Below, one piece after another: positions 456 to 9,740 of a stretch of DNA of 64,000 bases (position 1 is its first letter; every line of letters starts with the position of its first letter). A program made the position numbers and the translations under genes. Origin of the DNA: Chryseobacterium gleum (lineage in GTDB: Bacteria; Bacteroidota; Bacteroidia; Flavobacteriales; Schleiferiaceae); assembly GCA_945883565.1 (NCBI GenBank), contig CAMCXO010000005.1, positions 1-64,000 of the forward strand, given 5' to 3'. Below the pieces are notes generated by a model. That model ran no database searches. It was not told the DNA's origin and worked only from the letters and a program-made list of their open reading frames with translations.

Positions 456-2042
456 CTAAACTTTCTTCCTTTTTTTGGTTTTTCCTTTATACTCCTTATA
501 TAAAAATCTTTGATTATTTTTTGAATTTAATGTGTTGACTAAAATAGTAAAATGTCTTGAAAGTTGTTTGCGAATTGAAGGTGAATTCATTCCTTCCTTT
601 TCCTCTCCTTTTGATTTGTTGTAGAATTCTTTAGAAGCATTGTAAGCATAAGTCAAAAAGTTTCTGTTGCCCAGATGTGAGTATCTCTCAAAAATTTGCT
701 TCTTCCATATTTTGTTGTCTTTTCCATTATCGCTATATGCCATAACTACAGTTTTGATAATCCTTCCTTTCATTTTTCGGAAGTATCTTGACAAACTACT
801 TGAACGGATATAGATATTCTGACCGTTGTATTCAAATCCTAAATATTGAAGTGGTTTGTAATACAATGATTCATTGTTTGCATTTGTAATCTGCAAGCCC
901 GCTTTTGATTGTTTTTTCTTATTGAAGGCTCGAATTATTCCTTTTGAGTTTGGCCTAAACTCGGTTAATTCTACTTTCTTATCCTGAATTTCCAGATAAT
1001 ATTCGTCTTTAATTTTTGTAATGATTTCTTTCTGAATTGTTTCTGCTTTATCACTATCGCAAACAATCAAAATATCATCACAATACCTTCGGTAGAAAAA
1101 GCCTTCATTTTTTGCTCGTTCATTTAAGTCTTTATCAAAGTCAATTAGGTAGATGTTTGATAAAAGTGCACTCATTCCTGAACCTTGAGGAATTCCAAAA
1201 AGTCGTCCAGTTTCTTTATCTGGCTTGTTATTGGTTACAATTAACCTGTCATCACGCAACCTTTGATATTTTTCATAGTCCTTCTTACCAGGAACTAGGT
1301 CAAGCAAAGTTGACGGTGGATGAGCTAATTTTTTTAAATCAACATCATACTTTCGCAAAATGCTATTCTTGCTTACATAGCTGTATTCTGTAAGTGCTTT
1401 ATAAAGTTTAAATTGGTCAGGTGGAAGTTTCTCACCAATTACTTGAATCCATTTTTCCTTTAACTTTTTATGGTCTATGTGGTCGAAATACCCTTTTATG
1501 TCTAAAGCTATTGCGGAACAATTCCCTCTTCGTTTGATTTCTTCAAAAACCTCTTTTGAGAATTGAATATTACACTTGCCAGCTAAATTTGAACGGTATG
1601 CAAGTGGACATTCTGAGAAACCCTCTTTGGCAATGTAGGCTTCATATTTTTTAGTAAGTGCATAGGCGTAAAACCCAAAAATCAATCCGTCAATATGTGA
1701 TGCAAAGCATATAGGTCTGATTTTAGTTTCTAAATCATAATGACCTTCTGCTTGTTGATACTTGTATCTCGGTGTTTTCAGAAGAATTTTTAGAAATGGG
1801 CTGAACGGCCACCATTCTTCCGTTTGGTGCTTTTTATTGTAAAACCGAAGTCCGTTTTTAAGCAGTGCTTTGAGTTCGTCTTTTCTTTCAGGAAACCAAA
1901 AGCGAAGGTCGAAATGGGTGTAACCCTTTTTCAGGTATTTCTTGGAGTCTTTGCCTGATTTGTTTTTTACAACTTTATAGTTGGTTTCTTCTTGTTCTGA
2001 CCAACCTTTCCAAAATTCTTCAAATTCTTCTTCATTAAACAT
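456..2042 (-). CDS. Defence-type reverse transcriptase (unknown-group RT, DRT2-like)
   Basis: RNA-directed DNA polymerase, 528 aa from the chosen ATG. Visible RT motifs: KIRPICFASHIDG (about 107-119, motif 2), ALDIKGYFDHID with the first catalytic Asp (about 179-190, motif A), GIPQGSGMSALLSNIY (about 283-298, motif B), and YCDD (about 320-323, motif C). A ~90-residue insertion lies between motifs A and B, and a helical C-terminal tail includes NRNFLTYAYNASKEF and SIRKQLSRHF. There is no group II maturase/HNH region and no retron VTG motif. The YCDD box, the tail and the structured RNA upstream point to UG2/DRT2 anti-phage RTs; this class call is inferred from memory of the family. A longer frame begins at a TTG at 2120, but it reads through an 11-bp stem-loop, so ATG 2042 is preferred. 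It sits next to a type I R-M operon. Confidence 0.8.
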   Translation of the reverse strand: MFNEEEFEEFWKGWSEQEETNYKVVKNKSGKDSKKYLKKGYTHFDLRFWFPERKDELKALLKNGLRFYNKKHQTEEWWPFSPFLKILLKTPRYKYQQAEGHYDLETKIRPICFASHIDGLIFGFYAYALTKKYEAYIAKEGFSECPLAYRSNLAGKCNIQFSKEVFEEIKRRGNCSAIALDIKGYFDHIDHKKLKEKWIQVIGEKLPPDQFKLYKALTEYSYVSKNSILRKYDVDLKKLAHPPSTLLDLVPGKKDYEKYQRLRDDRLIVTNNKPDKETGRLFGIPQGSGMSALLSNIYLIDFDKDLNERAKNEGFFYRRYCDDILIVCDSDKAETIQKEIITKIKDEYYLEIQDKKVELTEFRPNSKGIIRAFNKKKQSKAGLQITNANNESLYYKPLQYLGFEYNGQNIYIRSSSLSRYFRKMKGRIIKTVVMAYSDNGKDNKIWKKQIFERYSHLGNRNFLTYAYNASKEFYNKSKGEEKEGMNSPSIRKQLSRHFTILVNTLNSKNNQRFLYKEYKGKTKKRKKV

Positions 2043-2341
2043 AGGGCGGTTTTTAATGGGACACTGTCCAGCGAGCAATACCAGTCTTAACTCAACTGGA
2101 CAGTGTGCACTTTTTTTCAAATGCGATGGCTATAAGTCTGCCTCCAACTCACAGAGGGTTTTCACCTCAAAAGCCTTTTTCCACCCTTGGCCAATCAAGA
2201 GCCGAATAAATCGGATTGTGGCACTTCAGATTGCAACCTTTTCACAACCTTTTCAGGATTACCGCCAAGATGACTGTATCTTGGTTTAGTTATATCCCCC
2301 GAAACCTTGAAGCTAAGCTTCTCGGGCATTCCCAGTTTTTA
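2043..2341 (-). ncRNA. Candidate structured ncRNA of the RT system (template RNA)
   Basis: The ~300 nt just upstream of the RT start fold, on the RT strand, into many short hairpins: 2298-2302/2322-2326 with an inner GAAGC/GCTTC stem; a perfect 7-bp stem 2265-2271/2278-2284; CCGA/TCGG 2202-2205/2211-2214; CTTG/CAAG 2186-2189/2196-2199; and a perfect 11-bp stem 2061-2071/2096-2106 ending 18 nt before the RT ATG. There is also an 11-nt direct repeat of CAACCTTTT (2234-2242, 2245-2253). A hairpin-rich ncRNA directly 5' of the RT on the same strand is the known architecture of DRT2. Ends are approximate. The promoter is unclear: the best guess is TTG 2516-2518, 21 nt, AAACTTTG 2487-2494, one mismatch from TAnnTTTG, which would give a longer leader. 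Confidence 0.5.
2061..2106 (-). promoter_or_regulatory. Perfect 11-bp stem-loop abutting the RT start
   Basis: ACACTGTCCAG (2061-2071) and CTGGACAGTGT (2096-2106) are exact reverse complements around a 24-nt loop, 18 nt upstream of the RT ATG at 2042. It can be the last stem of the ncRNA, and it argues against the longer TTG-initiated RT frame. Confidence 0.6.
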
Positions 2342-2372
2342 CACTAGGGAGGTCTTTTTTAACATCAGTAAG

Positions 2373-2588
2373 ATGAAAGTCATTAATATTATCATATTCA
2401 ACCTTATAAGTGCTGTGCTATTCGCAGCAGGTGCTTATTCAGCGGAAACTTTGACAGATATTCTTGCGTTATTGGCAGGAATGGTTCAAAGTTTGATATA
2501 TATTGTTAACTTAAACAACTATCCATCGGTCTATTTCAACCTTTGCACTTCTGGTAATTCATTAATTGTGCCATTACATTTCGACTGA
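2373..2588 (+). CDS. Possible small two-helix membrane protein
   Basis: A 71-residue frame from ATG 2373, opposite in strand to the RT and hsdS. It is very hydrophobic up to about residue 45, with two likely membrane segments (IIIFNLISAVLFAAGAY and LTDILALLAGMVQSLIYIV) separated by SAET. The frame also extends upstream to 2307. It occupies the gap between hsdS and the ncRNA/RT unit, so it would overlap the region where the RT promoter should be. No family was recognised. It might be a real small membrane protein of the defence island or a chance frame. Confidence 0.3.
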   Translation: MKVINIIIFNLISAVLFAAGAYSAETLTDILALLAGMVQSLIYIVNLNNYPSVYFNLCTSGNSLIVPLHFD

Positions 2589-2617: not shown

Positions 2618-4126
2618 TTATACCTTTTCCATTTCCTTAACCTCAAACGCCTGATACAGCAATGCTTTTAGCAGTTGCTCGGTGGCTTGTTGGTTGGCAA
2701 TAATGTGTTCTTTTAATTGTTTGGTTTTGGCTATTTGCTTTTCTATTTCCGACACTATGCGTTTTTGCTCGGACAGTGGTGGGATTGGTATTACCACTTC
2801 TCTTATCTGATTCAAGTGAAGATTTGGAACTCCTATCCCTCTCAATCTTTTATTAAACTGTTTTTTAGCGATTGATGAATTAATGAAATGCAAGAGATAT
2901 AGGGGGTGAATTCCTTCATATGCTCGGAGTAACGCAAGGCTAACATAAATATCAAAAACAACGTCTCTGTCAACTAAAGCAGCCACACCTGTTGTTCCAT
3001 TTTTTGCCAATAAAATATCATTAATTTTCGGTGAAACACGTTTTTGCATTTCTATGTGTTGCTTTTCATCTATGTATTTAATATTTGTCCAATCAATTTT
3101 TCCACTTGTAACATTTTTTGAAGACAGGAAAATAATTCCTTCTTTGAAATATGTTGGTGTATAATGTGTTCCGTCCGTTATGTAGTAGCAAATCTCATTA
3201 AGTTTAGTCCACACCCAATTTTCAGGAATCTCAAACGGAATTTCTTCGGGTTTGATGGGTGGCAAGGGTTTTTCTTTCTTGCCTGATTTTGCTTTCTCTG
3301 TTTTTATGCGTTTGAGCAATTCGGTTGCAGGTTCGTCTTTAGGGTCTTGCTTTACCAACTTACCCTGTACCGCTTCTTGTAAAATGGCTTGGTTTAGGGA
3401 GTCGAGGTGGGTGAGTTGGTAAGTGAGTTCGTCTTGAACTTCTCTTGCTTTAACCTGCTTTTCTTGAATGTCTTTTATTTCATTTTCAATTTCTTCATCA
3501 AAATAATTATGACCGTTTATATCCCCATTTCTTAAGTCATTCAGAAAACGAATGATATTTTTTTGAATATCCTTGCTCGGAATCGGAAAGTTTAATTCTT
3601 CGATTTGTTTAGGGCTTACATTAGGAATGGCAGCACCCCAAGCTAAATTCTTTACAATTCCTTCTACACCTCTTGCAATCCAATAGATGTATTCCTTTTC
3701 AAATTCATTTCGGTTCAGAATGTCAAACTTTCCAACTCGTTGATTCAAATAAAGCTTACCCAAACCTCCTTGAACGATTCCTAATTTCCCAATTGTTCCG
3801 CCTGTTAAAGCAATGATTATATCAGATTCTTTGAGTTCGTATTTTTCAAGCAATGGTAATTCTTCGTAGTAAACAACACTATCTAAAACGATTCTTTCAT
3901 TGTTGAAATCAGAAATTCGGATTATTGGAACACCTGAACTTTTGTATTCAGAATTTTTAAACGCAAATCCTCCAACAATCTTAATGTGATTTGATAAAGG
4001 TTCACTTTTAAAACTTTTACTAAGCCCTTTATTGATTAGTGTTATGTAATGACCAATTGAATTGAAAAATGCTTTTTCCCAATTATCTGTTATACTTGAG
4101 CTAAATGGTTTTCTTCCTCTACTCAT
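2618..4126 (-). CDS. hsdS: Type I restriction-modification specificity subunit HsdS
   Basis: DNA-recognition subunit of the type I R-M complex, 502 aa. Two target-recognition domains are visible: about residues 40-210 (ending at NVSPKQIEELNFPIPS) and about 300-480 (ending at HLNQIREVVIPIPPLSEQK). They are separated by long helical spacers (LTHLDSLNQAILQEAVQGKL) and followed by a second helical spacer (SEQKRIVSEIEKQIAKTKQL). The linker with PPIKPEEIPFEIPENWVW is typical of HsdS. The start overlaps the stop of the DUF1016 gene by 4 nt (ATGA), showing translational coupling with hsdM and hsdR upstream. Its two target recognition domains set which split DNA sequence is methylated or cut; the actual target cannot be read from sequence. 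Confidence 0.93.
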   Translation of the reverse strand: MSRGRKPFSSSITDNWEKAFFNSIGHYITLINKGLSKSFKSEPLSNHIKIVGGFAFKNSEYKSSGVPIIRISDFNNERIVLDSVVYYEELPLLEKYELKESDIIIALTGGTIGKLGIVQGGLGKLYLNQRVGKFDILNRNEFEKEYIYWIARGVEGIVKNLAWGAAIPNVSPKQIEELNFPIPSKDIQKNIIRFLNDLRNGDINGHNYFDEEIENEIKDIQEKQVKAREVQDELTYQLTHLDSLNQAILQEAVQGKLVKQDPKDEPATELLKRIKTEKAKSGKKEKPLPPIKPEEIPFEIPENWVWTKLNEICYYITDGTHYTPTYFKEGIIFLSSKNVTSGKIDWTNIKYIDEKQHIEMQKRVSPKINDILLAKNGTTGVAALVDRDVVFDIYVSLALLRAYEGIHPLYLLHFINSSIAKKQFNKRLRGIGVPNLHLNQIREVVIPIPPLSEQKRIVSEIEKQIAKTKQLKEHIIANQQATEQLLKALLYQAFEVKEMEKV

Positions 4127-5211
4127 ATCTCCTCCCTTTTTTGATTATCCCATAACTCCACCAACTCATGTAACTTGGCTTGGAGTAATTTCTTGTCTGG
4201 CAGGGCCATTTGGTATTCGCTTACCAAGGCAGGAGAAAGGTTGCGGCTGAGCGCGTATTCTACGACTTCGCTGTCTTTGCCTTTGCAGAGTAAGATGCCA
4301 ATGCTGGGGTTTTCGTGGGGCTTTTTTACGTCACGGTCGAGTGCTTCGAGGTAAAAATTCAATTGTCCCATGTGTTCGGGCGAAAAATCAACGGTTTTGA
4401 GTTCAAAGGCAACCAAACATTGCAATTGTCTATGGTAAAACAGCAGGTCTATAAAAAAATCTTTGTTGCCTACCTGCAAACGGTTTTGTTCACCAACAAA
4501 AAGGAAATCTTTGCCTAATTCAAGCAAAAAGGATTTGAGCTTTTGAATCAGACCTTTTTGAAGTTCGTTTTCCGTGAAGGTTTCGGGTAAGTTTAAAAAC
4601 TCAAAGATGTATAAGTCTTTGAAATGAGGCTGTATCGAATCTATGCCTGATGAACTTGCTGGAATTTCTGTTTTTGCAGACAGCATGGTTCTTTCAAACA
4701 CGGATGCAGAAATCTGCCGGTCGAGTTCTTTTACGGTATAGCGCTCTTTTTTAGTTAGGTACAAATAGAACAAACGCTCTTCTTCTGATTTGCATCGGCT
4801 CAACAACGTAAGATGTTGTGTCCAGCCAATTTCAGTAAGATCACTGCTTCTAACATCCCACATTCTAAATTGTGTCATTGCCGCTGACACAATTGTATCT
4901 TCATTATTTTCAACACTTTGTAAATGTGTCCTCGTTGATGACACCATTTCGGCATCCTTGTAAGTTTCAAAAAATTGACGCATTCGGTATAGGCCTCTGC
5001 GGTTGAAGCCCTTCATTTCGGGATGCTTAGTTTGAATGTAATTCGCCAGTTCTTCTACTGTTTTATCACCCCATTGTGCTGCGTTTACTTTAAGGGCAAT
5101 GTAGTACCCTACATTCCAATAAAGGTTAATTAACTCTTTATTAACCGCTCTGTAAGCAGAAGCTTGTGCTGACCGTATCAGCGAAACGATTTCAGCAAAA
5201 CGGTTATCCAT
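4123..5211 (-). CDS. DUF1016 / YhcG-type PD-(D/E)XK nuclease family protein
   Basis: A 362-aa protein with the YhcG arrangement: an N-terminal DUF1016_N helical region (SAYRAVNKELINLYWNVGYY, about 18-37, then NRRGLYRMRQFF, about 70-81) and a C-terminal nuclease-like domain. Putative PD-(D/E)XK residues are D255 in KDFFIDLLFYH and E270/K272 in VAFELK, followed by the conserved QLNFYLEALD. Proteins of this family often sit inside type I R-M operons. Here it overlaps hsdM by 8 nt upstream and hsdS by 4 nt downstream, so the three are co-translated. The role is not established; it may be an auxiliary nuclease or an R-M modulator. The domain call is confident, the function is not. Confidence 0.85.
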   Translation of the reverse strand: MDNRFAEIVSLIRSAQASAYRAVNKELINLYWNVGYYIALKVNAAQWGDKTVEELANYIQTKHPEMKGFNRRGLYRMRQFFETYKDAEMVSSTRTHLQSVENNEDTIVSAAMTQFRMWDVRSSDLTEIGWTQHLTLLSRCKSEEERLFYLYLTKKERYTVKELDRQISASVFERTMLSAKTEIPASSSGIDSIQPHFKDLYIFEFLNLPETFTENELQKGLIQKLKSFLLELGKDFLFVGEQNRLQVGNKDFFIDLLFYHRQLQCLVAFELKTVDFSPEHMGQLNFYLEALDRDVKKPHENPSIGILLCKGKDSEVVEYALSRNLSPALVSEYQMALPDKKLLQAKLHELVELWDNQKREEI

Positions 5212-6664
5212 GCTTTAATTCCTTTAAAAGTTGCAAGGAAGCCAGAAAAGACTCTTCCAGATTTTCAATAATGGCCTTTCTATCATAAACAACTTCTTCT
5301 ACAACTTTATTTGGGTTCTTAATATCCAAATCATAGTTTCGGTCTATGATAGTCTGCATTGACACCTTCCAAGATGCTTCGCTTTCTTTACGATTTTTCC
5401 ACCATTGTTTAATTGGTTCAAACTCTTCAATGCGAATAGGTTTGGTTTTGCTGTAGGCTTTTTGTCCGTCAGGCAAAGTGTGTTCGTAATACCAAATCTC
5501 TTTTGTTGCGTGCCTATTGTCTGAACCATGATTTTCAGGATTAAAGGATTGCCCTGATTTATCGAAGAAGATAAGATTGGTATTGACTGTTGCGTAAGGT
5601 GCAAAAACAGATTGCGGAAGTCTAACGATGGTGTGGACATTACAATCTCTGAGCAATTTTTCTCTTACCCGTTGTTTTACACCATCACCTGTTAAACTGC
5701 CATCTGGCAACACAATTCCTGCTCGTCCGCCATCTTTCAGCAATTGGATAAACAGTATCAAAAACAAATCAGCACTTTCCTTGGTGCGGTAATTCAAGGG
5801 GAAATTGGTTTCCATACCATCGCCCACCACACCACCAAAAGGCGGATTGGCAACAATGATGTCCACACGGTCTTTTTGTTTGATGGAGTTGTATTCACGG
5901 CTCAGCGAATCACTGTTTTCAATTTGTGGCACTTCAATGTCGTGGGTAATCAGGTTTACCACACTCAGCATAAAAGGCAGGGGTTTCAGTTCGCTGCCTG
6001 TTACGGTTTCCTGTAAGGTTTTGCGATCGTCAATGTTTTTTACCTGCTTTTTCAAGTGTTCAATGGCACACACCAAAAAGCCCGCAGTTCCGCAAGCAGG
6101 GTCGGTAATTTTCTCACCCAATTTGGGGTTTACCATATCCACAATAAACTGGGTTACGGCTCTTGGCGTATAAAATTCGCCCGTGTCTTTCTTGGTAGCC
6201 AAGCCCTGCAAAATCTCCTCATAAATCACATTAAAAACGTGATGCTCTTTGCTGCTGTTAAAGTCAATTTCGTTGAGTTTGTTAATGGCTTGGCGGAAAG
6301 TTGTTCCGCTTTTCATATAGTTGTTGGTTCCGTCAAAGATTTGGCGAATGGTAATACCCAATCTATCATCAGCCGAAACTGTCAGATTTTTCAGTGTCGG
6401 GAAAAGTTTGTTGTTCACAAAATTGATGAGTTCATCACCTGTGATGCCTTCGTCATCTTCTGCCCAATTACGCCACTGCAATTCAGCAGGAATATCTGAT
6501 TTGTATTTGGGGTTCAGGATTTCTTTTTCCTTGTCTTTGTCGTCAAAAAGTTTCAGAAATATCATCCAACCCAATTGCTCAATGCGTTGTGCATCTCCAC
6601 TTAAACCCGGGTCTTTGCGGAAAATATCTCTGATTGATTTTATAGTGCCTGCTATGTTGCTCAT
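5204..6664 (-). CDS. hsdM: Type I restriction-modification DNA methyltransferase HsdM
   Basis: N6-adenine DNA methyltransferase subunit, 486 aa. The N-terminal HsdM_N helical domain (about 1-130, GDAQRIEQLGWMIFLKLFDD) is followed by an N6_Mtase domain with GEFYTPRAV (162-170), the SAM-binding DPACGTAGF (188-196) and the catalytic NPPF (273-276). It pairs with HsdS for modification, and with HsdR for restriction. Its ATG overlaps the preceding unknown gene by 4 nt and its stop overlaps the DUF1016 gene by 8 nt. All motifs are intact, so the methyltransferase should be active. Confidence 0.96.
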   Translation of the reverse strand: MSNIAGTIKSIRDIFRKDPGLSGDAQRIEQLGWMIFLKLFDDKDKEKEILNPKYKSDIPAELQWRNWAEDDEGITGDELINFVNNKLFPTLKNLTVSADDRLGITIRQIFDGTNNYMKSGTTFRQAINKLNEIDFNSSKEHHVFNVIYEEILQGLATKKDTGEFYTPRAVTQFIVDMVNPKLGEKITDPACGTAGFLVCAIEHLKKQVKNIDDRKTLQETVTGSELKPLPFMLSVVNLITHDIEVPQIENSDSLSREYNSIKQKDRVDIIVANPPFGGVVGDGMETNFPLNYRTKESADLFLILFIQLLKDGGRAGIVLPDGSLTGDGVKQRVREKLLRDCNVHTIVRLPQSVFAPYATVNTNLIFFDKSGQSFNPENHGSDNRHATKEIWYYEHTLPDGQKAYSKTKPIRIEEFEPIKQWWKNRKESEASWKVSMQTIIDRNYDLDIKNPNKVVEEVVYDRKAIIENLEESFLASLQLLKELKHG

Positions 6665-7347
6665 ATTCCAATTTGTTTTCTGGCAATTTTTATAATTGCT
6701 GATAATGCAGTCTCTGCTATTTTATCGTAAGTTTTGTCTTTGAATGATTCTTTGAGTTCTTTGAATATGCTCTCTAATTTCTTGAACTCCTTTTTTACTT
6801 CAAGATCACTTTTATCCTTGTTTATAGCTTCAATTAAAGGTTGTTTTTTTGCTTGTCTTAAGATGCTGTCTAACAGATTTAAAAACTCAGTGTATTTTAT
6901 CACAAGCTGGTTTTTATTTAATGTGTAATCAATTGAGGAACCACTTTCGACCACAAATCTTTCAATTAATCTGTGAACGTGCAGGTCATCAATATAAATT
7001 CGGACTTTACCGTTTTCTTTATCCTCTGTTTCTAATTTTTTACCATCTAATGCCTCAAATATTAATTTCCAATTATCTTCATTGGACAAATCTAGGTTAA
7101 GAAATTTTGCAGAACGTGTCATTTCCAAGCTTCTTAACTTGGTAGGAGTTATTTTTAAAACTCTCATCAAATCATAGCTGTTTTTAACCTTTGATTTATC
7201 TATATTCATCATTAAGTGATGAAACATAAAGGCTTCAAAGTCAGACTTAGACAAAACACCAAGCCCAAGTTCTTCGAAACTTTTTATTAAAGCCTCGCCA
7301 AATTTTTTACCACCTTCTTTTTGAAGTATCTGAGAAAGTTTTTCCAT
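6661..7347 (-). CDS. Unknown protein embedded in the type I R-M operon
   Basis: A 228-aa protein I do not recognise. It is charged and mostly helical. Its C-terminal ~75 residues are Lys/Glu-rich (EVKKEFKKLESIFKELKESF), suggesting coiled coil. No signal peptide, membrane segment or catalytic motif stands out. The central part (SAKFLNLDLSNEDNWKLIFEALDG) looks like an alpha/beta or helical repeat rather than low complexity. It begins on the last base of the hsdR stop (TAATG) and overlaps hsdM by 4 nt, so it is translationally coupled to both and very likely part of the system. Possible roles, all inference, are an anti-self regulator, an abortive-infection partner or an assembly factor. Confidence 0.75.
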   Translation of the reverse strand: MEKLSQILQKEGGKKFGEALIKSFEELGLGVLSKSDFEAFMFHHLMMNIDKSKVKNSYDLMRVLKITPTKLRSLEMTRSAKFLNLDLSNEDNWKLIFEALDGKKLETEDKENGKVRIYIDDLHVHRLIERFVVESGSSIDYTLNKNQLVIKYTEFLNLLDSILRQAKKQPLIEAINKDKSDLEVKKEFKKLESIFKELKESFKDKTYDKIAETALSAIIKIARKQIGI

Positions 7348-9740
7348 TATGCTACTTTATACAATTCGTTTTCTAATTCTTTGATGGCTTTTTCGTATTC
7401 TTCACGACTGCCAAATGCTTTGATGATTTCGGTTACCGAGCCAAATTCATTGATTGGTGGAACAGTCAGAATTTGAATGTTCTCAATGTTTTCAATGCCT
7501 TGGTCAGCGTATTTGTCGAGCAATGCTTCTAAAACTTTTCGGGCTTGTTCGCCATACTTGGTAAAGTAGTTGCGTTTCTTCACGTTGTTTGCTCGTTCTT
7601 TTCTTGTCATTGGTGGTTGGTCATAAGCAACGTGGCAGATTAAATCAAACAAATCCACTTGCTTGTCAACGGCTTCATATAATGCTTCCACCATTACGCC
7701 CTGTTCAATCAATTCTGCAATGATGGCTTCTTTGCGGTCAGAACCTTTCCACTTGTTTAGAAAATCATCTAAGGAAGCAAATTGCTCTTTGATAATATCT
7801 TTGGTGTGGTCTTTCAAACTGGTTGTGATGGGTCTGCCGTGTTGGTCGAAATGCAATTCACGACTTATCAAAACCGTAACGTCAACTCCGTTTACATAAA
7901 CCTTTTCTCTTGGTTCGTTAAAAGTTTGTGGTGGAAATTCTGTTTCAGGATAACGGATTTCAGGGGACGTAATTTCAATTTCTTCTCCTGTTTCTATGTC
8001 AATGATGGGTTCTGTGTTTACTTCTTCTTCATCCACAATGCCGCTTAAGTCGGTTTCTTCTGCAACTGGTTTTATTCTTATCGGGTCACCGTCAAATTGT
8101 GGGTCTGCAAAAAGGTCTGTCGCATTTCTGAAATCCAAAATGGTAAAATACAGTTTGCCATATTCCTCATTGATTCGTGTTCCTCTTCCAATGATTTGCT
8201 TGAACTTGGTCATTGAATTGATGTTGCTGTCCAATACAATCACTTTGCAGGTTTGAGCATCCACACCTGTGGTCATCAATTCGGAAGTGGTGGCAATGAC
8301 CGGGTATTTTTCTTCGGGATTGATGAAGTTGTCCAACTCTCGTTTGCCTTCGTCATTGTCGCCTGTAATCTGCATTATGTATTTGTGGTTCTCCGCAACC
8401 AAAACAGGATTGTGTTTGGCTAATGCGGTTCGCATTCTTTCTGCGTGGTCAATGTCCACACAAAACACAATGGTTTTAGCAAAGCGGTCGTAACCTTTTA
8501 AAAACTCAGTTAGCTTTTTGGCAACTGTATCAGTCCTTTCCTCAATAACCAAGTTTTTGTCAAAATCCTTGCGGTTATAAATGCGGTCTTCAATTTCGTT
8601 TCCGTCTTTGTCGGTTTTGCCTTGTTCGGGTCGCCAACCTTCAGCATCCACATTTAGGGCAACTCTCACCACACGGTAAGGAGCAAGAAAACCATCGTCA
8701 ATTCCTTGTCGCAAAGAATAAGTGTAAACTGGGTCGCCAAAATATTCGGTGTTACTTGCTTCGTTGGTTTCTTTTGGCGTTGCAGTCAAACCAATATGCG
8801 TAGCATTTTGGAAGTAATTTAAAATCTCTCTCCAACTGCTATCGTCTTTTGCGCTTCCTCTGTGGCACTCGTCAATTACAATCAGGTCGAAAAAATCTCT
8901 TGAAAACTGTTTGTAAACATTGGCTGCTTCATCTGTTCCTGAAAGTCCTTGATACAATGCCAAATAAATTTCAAAGCTTTTGTCAATTTGCCTGTGTTTT
9001 ACCACAGTCATTTTATCCTTGAAATGTTTGAAGTCGCCTCTGCGTGTTTGGTCAATTAAAGCGTTTCGGTCAGCTAAAAACAGAATGCGTTTTTTTGCTC
9101 CGCTTTTCCAAAGTCGGTGAATGATTTGAAAAGCCGTATATGTTTTTCCTGTTCCTGTTGCCATTACAAGCAGAATTCTGTTCTGTCCATTGGCAATAGC
9201 TTCAACTGTTCTATTTACTGCAATTTGTTGGTAGTATCTCGGTTTGCGGTTTGTTCCGTCAAAATAATAGTCTTGTGAAACGATTCTTTCCGCTTCGGGA
9301 GTTTCAATACCTTTGTATTTTTTGTATTTCTGCCACAGTTGTTCGGGAGTAGGGAAGTCGTCTAAACTGATTTCGGTTTCTATGTTTCCGTCTGTCGCAG
9401 TACGGTCGTGAAATAAAAATCCGTCACCATTGCTGCTGAACACACAAGGAATGTCCAATATTTGAGCATAGTCCAAGCCTTGTTGTATTCCTGCCCTGAC
9501 TGAATGGTTGTTGTCTTTTGCTTCAATGATTGCAATGGGAATATTCGGCTTGTAGTATAGAATATAGTCGGCTCGTTTTCTTGTTCCTCTTGCTGTGATT
9601 TTTCCTCTAACGTAAATTTTACCATCAGTAAAAGAAACTTCCTCCAATATCTGCAATTGCTTGTCCCAACCTGCCTTTTCTAAAGCAGGAGTGATAAACT
9701 TGGTGCAAATATCTCTTTCTGAAAGTGTCTTTTTATTCAT
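7347..9740 (-). CDS. hsdR: Type I restriction enzyme translocase/nuclease subunit HsdR
   Basis: ATP-dependent DNA translocase and endonuclease subunit, 797 aa. It has an N-terminal nuclease domain with IAIIEAKD (E73, K75), Walker A ATGTGKT (194-200), Walker B DECH (290-293), motif III TATPKE (about 319-324) and motif VI IIGRGTRI, then an EcoEI-type C-terminal domain (about 640-797). This layout resembles the EcoEI branch of HsdR. It is the first gene of the operon. No exact TAnnTTTG promoter was found before it, though two AT-rich near matches lie at about 9749-9775. The motifs are intact, so restriction should be functional. Confidence 0.95.
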   Translation of the reverse strand: MNKKTLSERDICTKFITPALEKAGWDKQLQILEEVSFTDGKIYVRGKITARGTRKRADYILYYKPNIPIAIIEAKDNNHSVRAGIQQGLDYAQILDIPCVFSSNGDGFLFHDRTATDGNIETEISLDDFPTPEQLWQKYKKYKGIETPEAERIVSQDYYFDGTNRKPRYYQQIAVNRTVEAIANGQNRILLVMATGTGKTYTAFQIIHRLWKSGAKKRILFLADRNALIDQTRRGDFKHFKDKMTVVKHRQIDKSFEIYLALYQGLSGTDEAANVYKQFSRDFFDLIVIDECHRGSAKDDSSWREILNYFQNATHIGLTATPKETNEASNTEYFGDPVYTYSLRQGIDDGFLAPYRVVRVALNVDAEGWRPEQGKTDKDGNEIEDRIYNRKDFDKNLVIEERTDTVAKKLTEFLKGYDRFAKTIVFCVDIDHAERMRTALAKHNPVLVAENHKYIMQITGDNDEGKRELDNFINPEEKYPVIATTSELMTTGVDAQTCKVIVLDSNINSMTKFKQIIGRGTRINEEYGKLYFTILDFRNATDLFADPQFDGDPIRIKPVAEETDLSGIVDEEEVNTEPIIDIETGEEIEITSPEIRYPETEFPPQTFNEPREKVYVNGVDVTVLISRELHFDQHGRPITTSLKDHTKDIIKEQFASLDDFLNKWKGSDRKEAIIAELIEQGVMVEALYEAVDKQVDLFDLICHVAYDQPPMTRKERANNVKKRNYFTKYGEQARKVLEALLDKYADQGIENIENIQILTVPPINEFGSVTEIIKAFGSREEYEKAIKELENELYKVA

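Follow-up and report, generated by a model that had tools for sequence, protein, structure and literature searches.

A reverse transcriptase (RT) gene and the structured RNA upstream of it, at one end of a 64,000-nucleotide stretch of DNA (the window, the whole stretch that was analysed), probably form an abortive-infection DRT2 system of a distinct Bacteroidota subclade, which would make a hydrophobic Neo protein encoded by tandem cDNA. The locus is a DRT2 member by its RT, by the fold of that RT and by the RNA-plus-RT arrangement, while the tandem-cDNA/neo mechanism is what we infer, with support from an open antisense unit. A Bacteroidota DRT2, or else a related new class, was the reading of an earlier note made from the sequence of this DNA, and the former is now supported by the RT family together with a conserved and covarying upstream RNA. 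The features of the locus are as follows.

456-2042, minus strand: DRT2 (UG2) reverse transcriptase, 528 aa from ATG (by PADLOC, NCBIfam, PDB sequence and AlphaFold)
2055-2533, minus strand: putative ncRNA of ~480 nt, with 5' element, template-like stretch and 3' scaffold (by conservation with loci L020 and L032)
2523-2533, minus strand: conserved 5' element TAGACCGATGG (TAGgcCGATGG / TAGgtCGATGG in the homologues)
2506-2510, minus strand: 5' copy of the GTTAA direct repeat (TGTT copy at 2514-2517)
2364-2510, minus strand: candidate template unit of 147 nt, its antisense stop-free round the circle (alternative 2365-2517, 153 nt)
2359-2363, minus strand: 3' copy of the GTTAA direct repeat, within ATGTTAAAA (2365-2357) (TGTT copy at 2361-2364)
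2055-2363, minus strand: 3' scaffold of ~310 nt with covarying helices (e.g. 2278-2284/2265-2271, the 2318-2328 hairpin and 2096-2106/2061-2071)
2127-2287, minus strand: core of covariance model R1, 166.9 bits in the window
2370-2588, plus strand: antisense ORF of 72 aa in its genomic form, starting MKVINIIIFNLISAVLFAAGAYSAETLTDILALLAGMVQSLIYIVN; candidate neo frame

The RT belongs to DRT2 and is clear of other UG families, as placed by HMM, PDB sequence comparison and fold. Using PADLOC, Drt2 is the top family (427 bits), with UG39 as runner-up (85 bits) and Drt9 at 51, and the nearest solved structures in PDB sequence comparison are Klebsiella DRT2 chains (E ~1e-66). The AlphaFold model (mean pLDDT 87) matches DRT2 9c0i with a TM of 0.88 by 9c0i length and 33% identity, and the next-best folds, DRT9 and group II RTs, have a TM near 0.5. 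The YRRYCDD active site is intact at residues 317-323 and conserved across the alignment, Pfam finds RVT_1 only, and a C-terminal extension of ~50 aa runs past the end of Klebsiella DRT2. The NCBIfam Drt2 equivalog gives 380 bits, under its cut-off of 390, and the RT is therefore a divergent DRT2 member. From the above, the UG-type RT with YCDD that had been read on the minus strand corresponds to the 528-aa ORF with its YRRYCDD, and its proposed place inside UG2/DRT2 is supported by the PADLOC scores, the PDB matches and the 9c0i fold.

The closest RTs, in L032 (61% identity) and L020 (58%), both belong to a single other family within the same class, and the remaining relatives reach ~40% identity at most (1,731 genome searches, with overlapping samples). 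In the window, L020 and L032, the RNA has the same order: TAGRYCGATGG, a variable stretch of ~150 nt, a scaffold of ~310 nt and the RT ATG. The minus strand at 2043-2400 folds to -109.5 kcal/mol, whereas its shuffles average -88.2 +/- 5.8 (z = -3.7) and none of 100 folds as well, and the last hairpin (2061-2071 / 2096-2106; 11 bp, perfect) ends 18 nt 5' of the RT ATG, exactly where the earlier note had seen the hairpins end. That note described ~300 nt of dense hairpins and closed the locus at 2341. The dense folding stands, as it beats shuffles, but it covers only the 3' scaffold, and the limit has to be moved, for the conserved RNA runs on through the variable stretch to the 5' element at 2523-2533. 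Because this element lies past the variable stretch, the RNA is probably ~480 nt rather than ~300 nt long. The CGATGG of the 5' element (2523-2528) can also pair with CCATCG of the scaffold (2124-2129) in the window only, not in L020 or L032, possibly by chance.

The scaffold RNA is common to the window, L020 and L032. RNAalifold gives 75 pairs on the alignment of these three sequences, with 94.9% of the alignment cells able to pair. Pairs changed on both sides number 17, while shuffles give 7.2 +/- 2.0 (0 of 500) and slid structures 0-5, the latter being a control that flatters the scaffold because the structure was derived from the same three sequences. Replacements can be followed hairpin by hairpin, for example ACACUGUCCAG/CUGGACAGUGU versus ACAUUAGCUAG/CUAGCUAAUGU, and together with the shuffle control they clearly support compensatory change. 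When the core was turned into a covariance model, the window, L020 and L032 scored 159-178 bits, and a search of 33 further DRT2 loci and of 199 genomes brought up no match of similar strength (hits of about 21-23 bits elsewhere were counted as noise). Since the model rests on three sequences, the negative result means only 'not closely similar'. Conservation of the upstream hairpins among RT homologues, as had been expected, is thus seen both in the covariation with L020 and L032 and in a covariance search that matches only beside this RT clade. The Rfam scan of the window matched no family, RT-12 (RF03016) being absent even at E up to 5, and RT-12 had no match at gathering cut-off in L020, L032, L021 and L029. 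As the Klebsiella-type control loci L036 (80 bits) and L037 (77.5 bits) do match RT-12, the scaffold is of a different type or has diverged past recognition.

To one side of the RT/RNA locus lies a type I R-M operon, which had been reported before and in which hsdR, hsdM and hsdS were indeed found, together with two further genes. It is context outside the system:

2618-9740, minus strand: type I R-M operon adjoining the RT/RNA locus
7347-9740, minus strand: hsdR
6661-7347, minus strand: protein of 228 aa, lying between hsdR and hsdM (unmatched in Pfam and PADLOC, no meaningful NCBIfam match)
5204-6664, minus strand: hsdM
4123-5211, minus strand: DUF1016/YhcG PDDEXK nuclease (PADLOC PDC-S02), between hsdM and hsdS
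2618-4126, minus strand: hsdS

The neighbours of L020 are a histidine kinase, an integrase and a TonB receptor, and that of L032 is a chromate transporter. Since the gene neighbours differ in all three loci, the RT and its RNA form the conserved unit. With the window starting at one end of contig C5, only 455 nt are visible 3' of its RT, and within this reach no accessory gene is common to the window, L020 and L032. The source genome contains one DRT2 in total, and a second defence-type RT was identified on its contig C18 (L054, 1108-2652; UG14 by PADLOC, 719 bits). No relatives were found among viral contigs with the RT query and alignment A2 or by a scan for scaffold DNA motifs, and in plasmids all relatives found by tblastn with the RT are below 60% identity (best ~37%).

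According to work on Klebsiella DRT2, ACA motifs bound a template located 5' of the scaffold, and the antisense neo frame runs across the junctions without a stop, its length being divisible by 3 (PMC12039810; PMC11100668). When the published ACA rule was applied to the Klebsiella-type control L037, an open 117-nt unit was obtained. The variable stretch of the window looks like the template, and its boundaries are candidates only. One antisense frame, ISKMKVINIIIFNLISAVLFAAGAYSAETLTDILALLAGMVQSLIYIVN, is stop-free round the circle for both the 147- and the 153-nt unit, and its peptide is hydrophobic. In L032, an 8-nt repeat ATGTTAAA bounds a 147-nt unit (alternative 141) whose antisense frame is open too. 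Open antisense units occur by chance in 7% (window; P 0.07) and 4% (L032; P 0.04) of shuffled units, before the one-in-three chance of length is counted and uncorrected for the choice of boundary. The template sequence has largely diverged between the window and L020/L032, and the antisense peptides of the window and L032 are alike (z = 5; 42% identical where they align). In L020, the corresponding unit is 152 nt, one base short of being divisible by 3, and its frame meets a stop. The candidate template unit of L020 is placed at 1013-1159 with a run of seven T inside the template, and given this run, an assembly indel, decay and slippage are all possible causes of the frame break.

Several other tests concern the frame and the boundaries. 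A synonymous-substitution test of the antisense frame is weak (P 0.035), with one sense frame equally good. Over the loci, the longest-microhomology test places 56% of spacings at lengths divisible by 3 versus 33% expected, which is no more than suggestive, as the boundaries of known DRT2 systems have only 3 nt in common. Template lengths differ by a multiple of 3 in four close pairs (L015/L017, L014/L018, L009/L013 and L006/L019), and in the other alignable close pairs the differences are not multiples of 3, some intervals including non-template sequence. A single-copy antisense ORF with an upstream GGAGGTC exists in the window and L020. This GGAGGTC was rejected as a ribosome site for the antisense ATG, since L032 has GAGGAA instead and since its complement is engaged in scaffold pairing.

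We compared the antisense frames upstream of the RT in 36 DRT2 loci, mostly from Bacteroidota, with dinucleotide shuffles, in a search region set by hand from the RT ATG (window clade, -540 to -250; other loci, -410 to -120). The antisense strand exceeds the shuffles both in the length of its longest ATG frame (Fisher 7e-16) and in hydrophobicity (Fisher 6e-14), pooled values that overstate the strength because related loci are treated as independent; on the sense strand, length shows no effect (0.34) and hydrophobicity gives 0.02. Even in close pairs such as L015/L017, however, the template stretches are strongly diverged. The window alone reaches 0.04 for length and 0.03 for hydrophobicity, and since the two Klebsiella-type controls are not significant singly (0.24 and 0.13), the test is weak for one locus. 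Hydrophobic short antisense ORFs, candidates for Neo, are present in most Bacteroidota DRT2 loci of L002-L035 (e.g. L006, L025, L026, L032, L034). Hydrophobic antisense Neo frames may be widespread in Bacteroidota DRT2. In the publications considered here, Neo was annotated only for DRT2 close to the Klebsiella system, and whether divergent clades use the same trick was left open (PMC11100668); the family-wide result bears on this published difficulty.

The locus is likely to work as Klebsiella DRT2 does, by rolling-circle copying into a repetitive neo gene on infection. In this process, the ncRNA of ~480 nt would bind the RT through its large 3' scaffold, and upon phage infection the RT would copy the template stretch at about 2364-2510 and jump back at the flanking GTTAA/TGTT, leading to tandem cDNA with units of ~147 (or 153) nt. 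Second-strand synthesis would then yield the strand antisense to the ncRNA, in which a stop-less frame could encode a Neo protein, repetitive and hydrophobic, that arrests growth. We infer here the RNA ends, the jumping, the second strand, transcription, toxicity and the phage trigger. For transcription across the candidate junction, a general Bacteroidota promoter consensus scored no better than shuffles, and no conserved sigma-70 pair was found. A promoter reconstituted at the junction is described for Klebsiella-like DRT2 members only.

The missing junction promoter and the L020 unit, one base off with a stop in frame, both favour a reading in which the DRT2-clade RT and its ncRNA make concatemeric or other cDNA that acts as DNA or as a non-coding product, the antisense ORF being untranslated. 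Neo has also proved hard to annotate in divergent DRT2 clades, for which alternative mechanisms were raised (Tang et al., PMC11100668). Nevertheless, we regard this reading as unlikely, because across the 36 loci both the length and the hydrophobicity of the antisense ORFs are significant, with the sense strand null for length, and because the units of the window and L032 are open, are multiples of 3 and encode similar peptides.

It is very improbable that 2370-2588 on the plus strand is an ordinary small hydrophobic toxin gene, read directly from the genome, that the overlapping ncRNA represses in the manner of a type I toxin-antitoxin pair. In favour are the small size and hydrophobicity of the peptide and the single-copy ORF behind GGAGGTC in the window and L020, but L032 has GAGGAA in place of the GGAGG-like site, whose CCUC in the RNA sits in an invariant scaffold helix. 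Moreover, the frames of the window and L032 stay open through the whole repeat-bounded unit, and the RT clade is DRT2, for which expression of the antisense frame from cDNA is known. That the locus is a decayed or non-functional copy of DRT2, as the contig end, the other defence genes alongside and a score just under the NCBIfam Drt2 cut-off might suggest, is hardly credible given an intact RT ORF, YCDD, a confident fold and RNA helices kept by compensatory change.

Within the preferred reading, a DRT2 system with a Neo encoded by tandem cDNA, the enlarged and unrelated-looking scaffold, the different boundary repeats and the strongly hydrophobic Neo candidate make this locus a new DRT2 variant. 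We offer only tentatively the further idea that it represents a separate DRT2 subtype with a much larger scaffold RNA of its own, whose hidden gene would encode tandem hydrophobic helical hairpins. If so, a cell would answer phage infection by making an ever-longer membrane-inserting protein. The locus and its relatives also give an RNA class that has no Rfam entry, candidate template boundaries and a natural test of scaffold requirements.

Compared with known systems, DRT9 and other UG/DRT RTs have the RT core and YxDD in common with this RT, at 51 bits for Drt9, 85 bits for UG39 and a TM of ~0.5. Rfam RT-12 (RF03016), the structured RNA that accompanies DRT2 of the Klebsiella type, is unmatched by the RNA of the window. 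L020 and L032 share the scaffold RNA and the 5' element, while their neighbours and template sequence differ and the L020 unit is out of frame. Unlike Klebsiella pneumoniae DRT2 (PDB 9c0i), the locus has an RT of 528 aa (425 there), a scaffold of ~310 nt (~130), an RNA of ~480 nt (280) and a candidate unit of 147/153 nt (~120); its repeats are GTTAA/TGTT instead of ACA, and TTGACA/TATAAT was not found across the candidate junction. The two systems are alike in RT family and fold, in an ncRNA upstream of a single RT, in an apparent template 5' of the scaffold, and in an antisense, stop-free, hydrophobic candidate repeat that is divisible by 3 and lies between short direct repeats.
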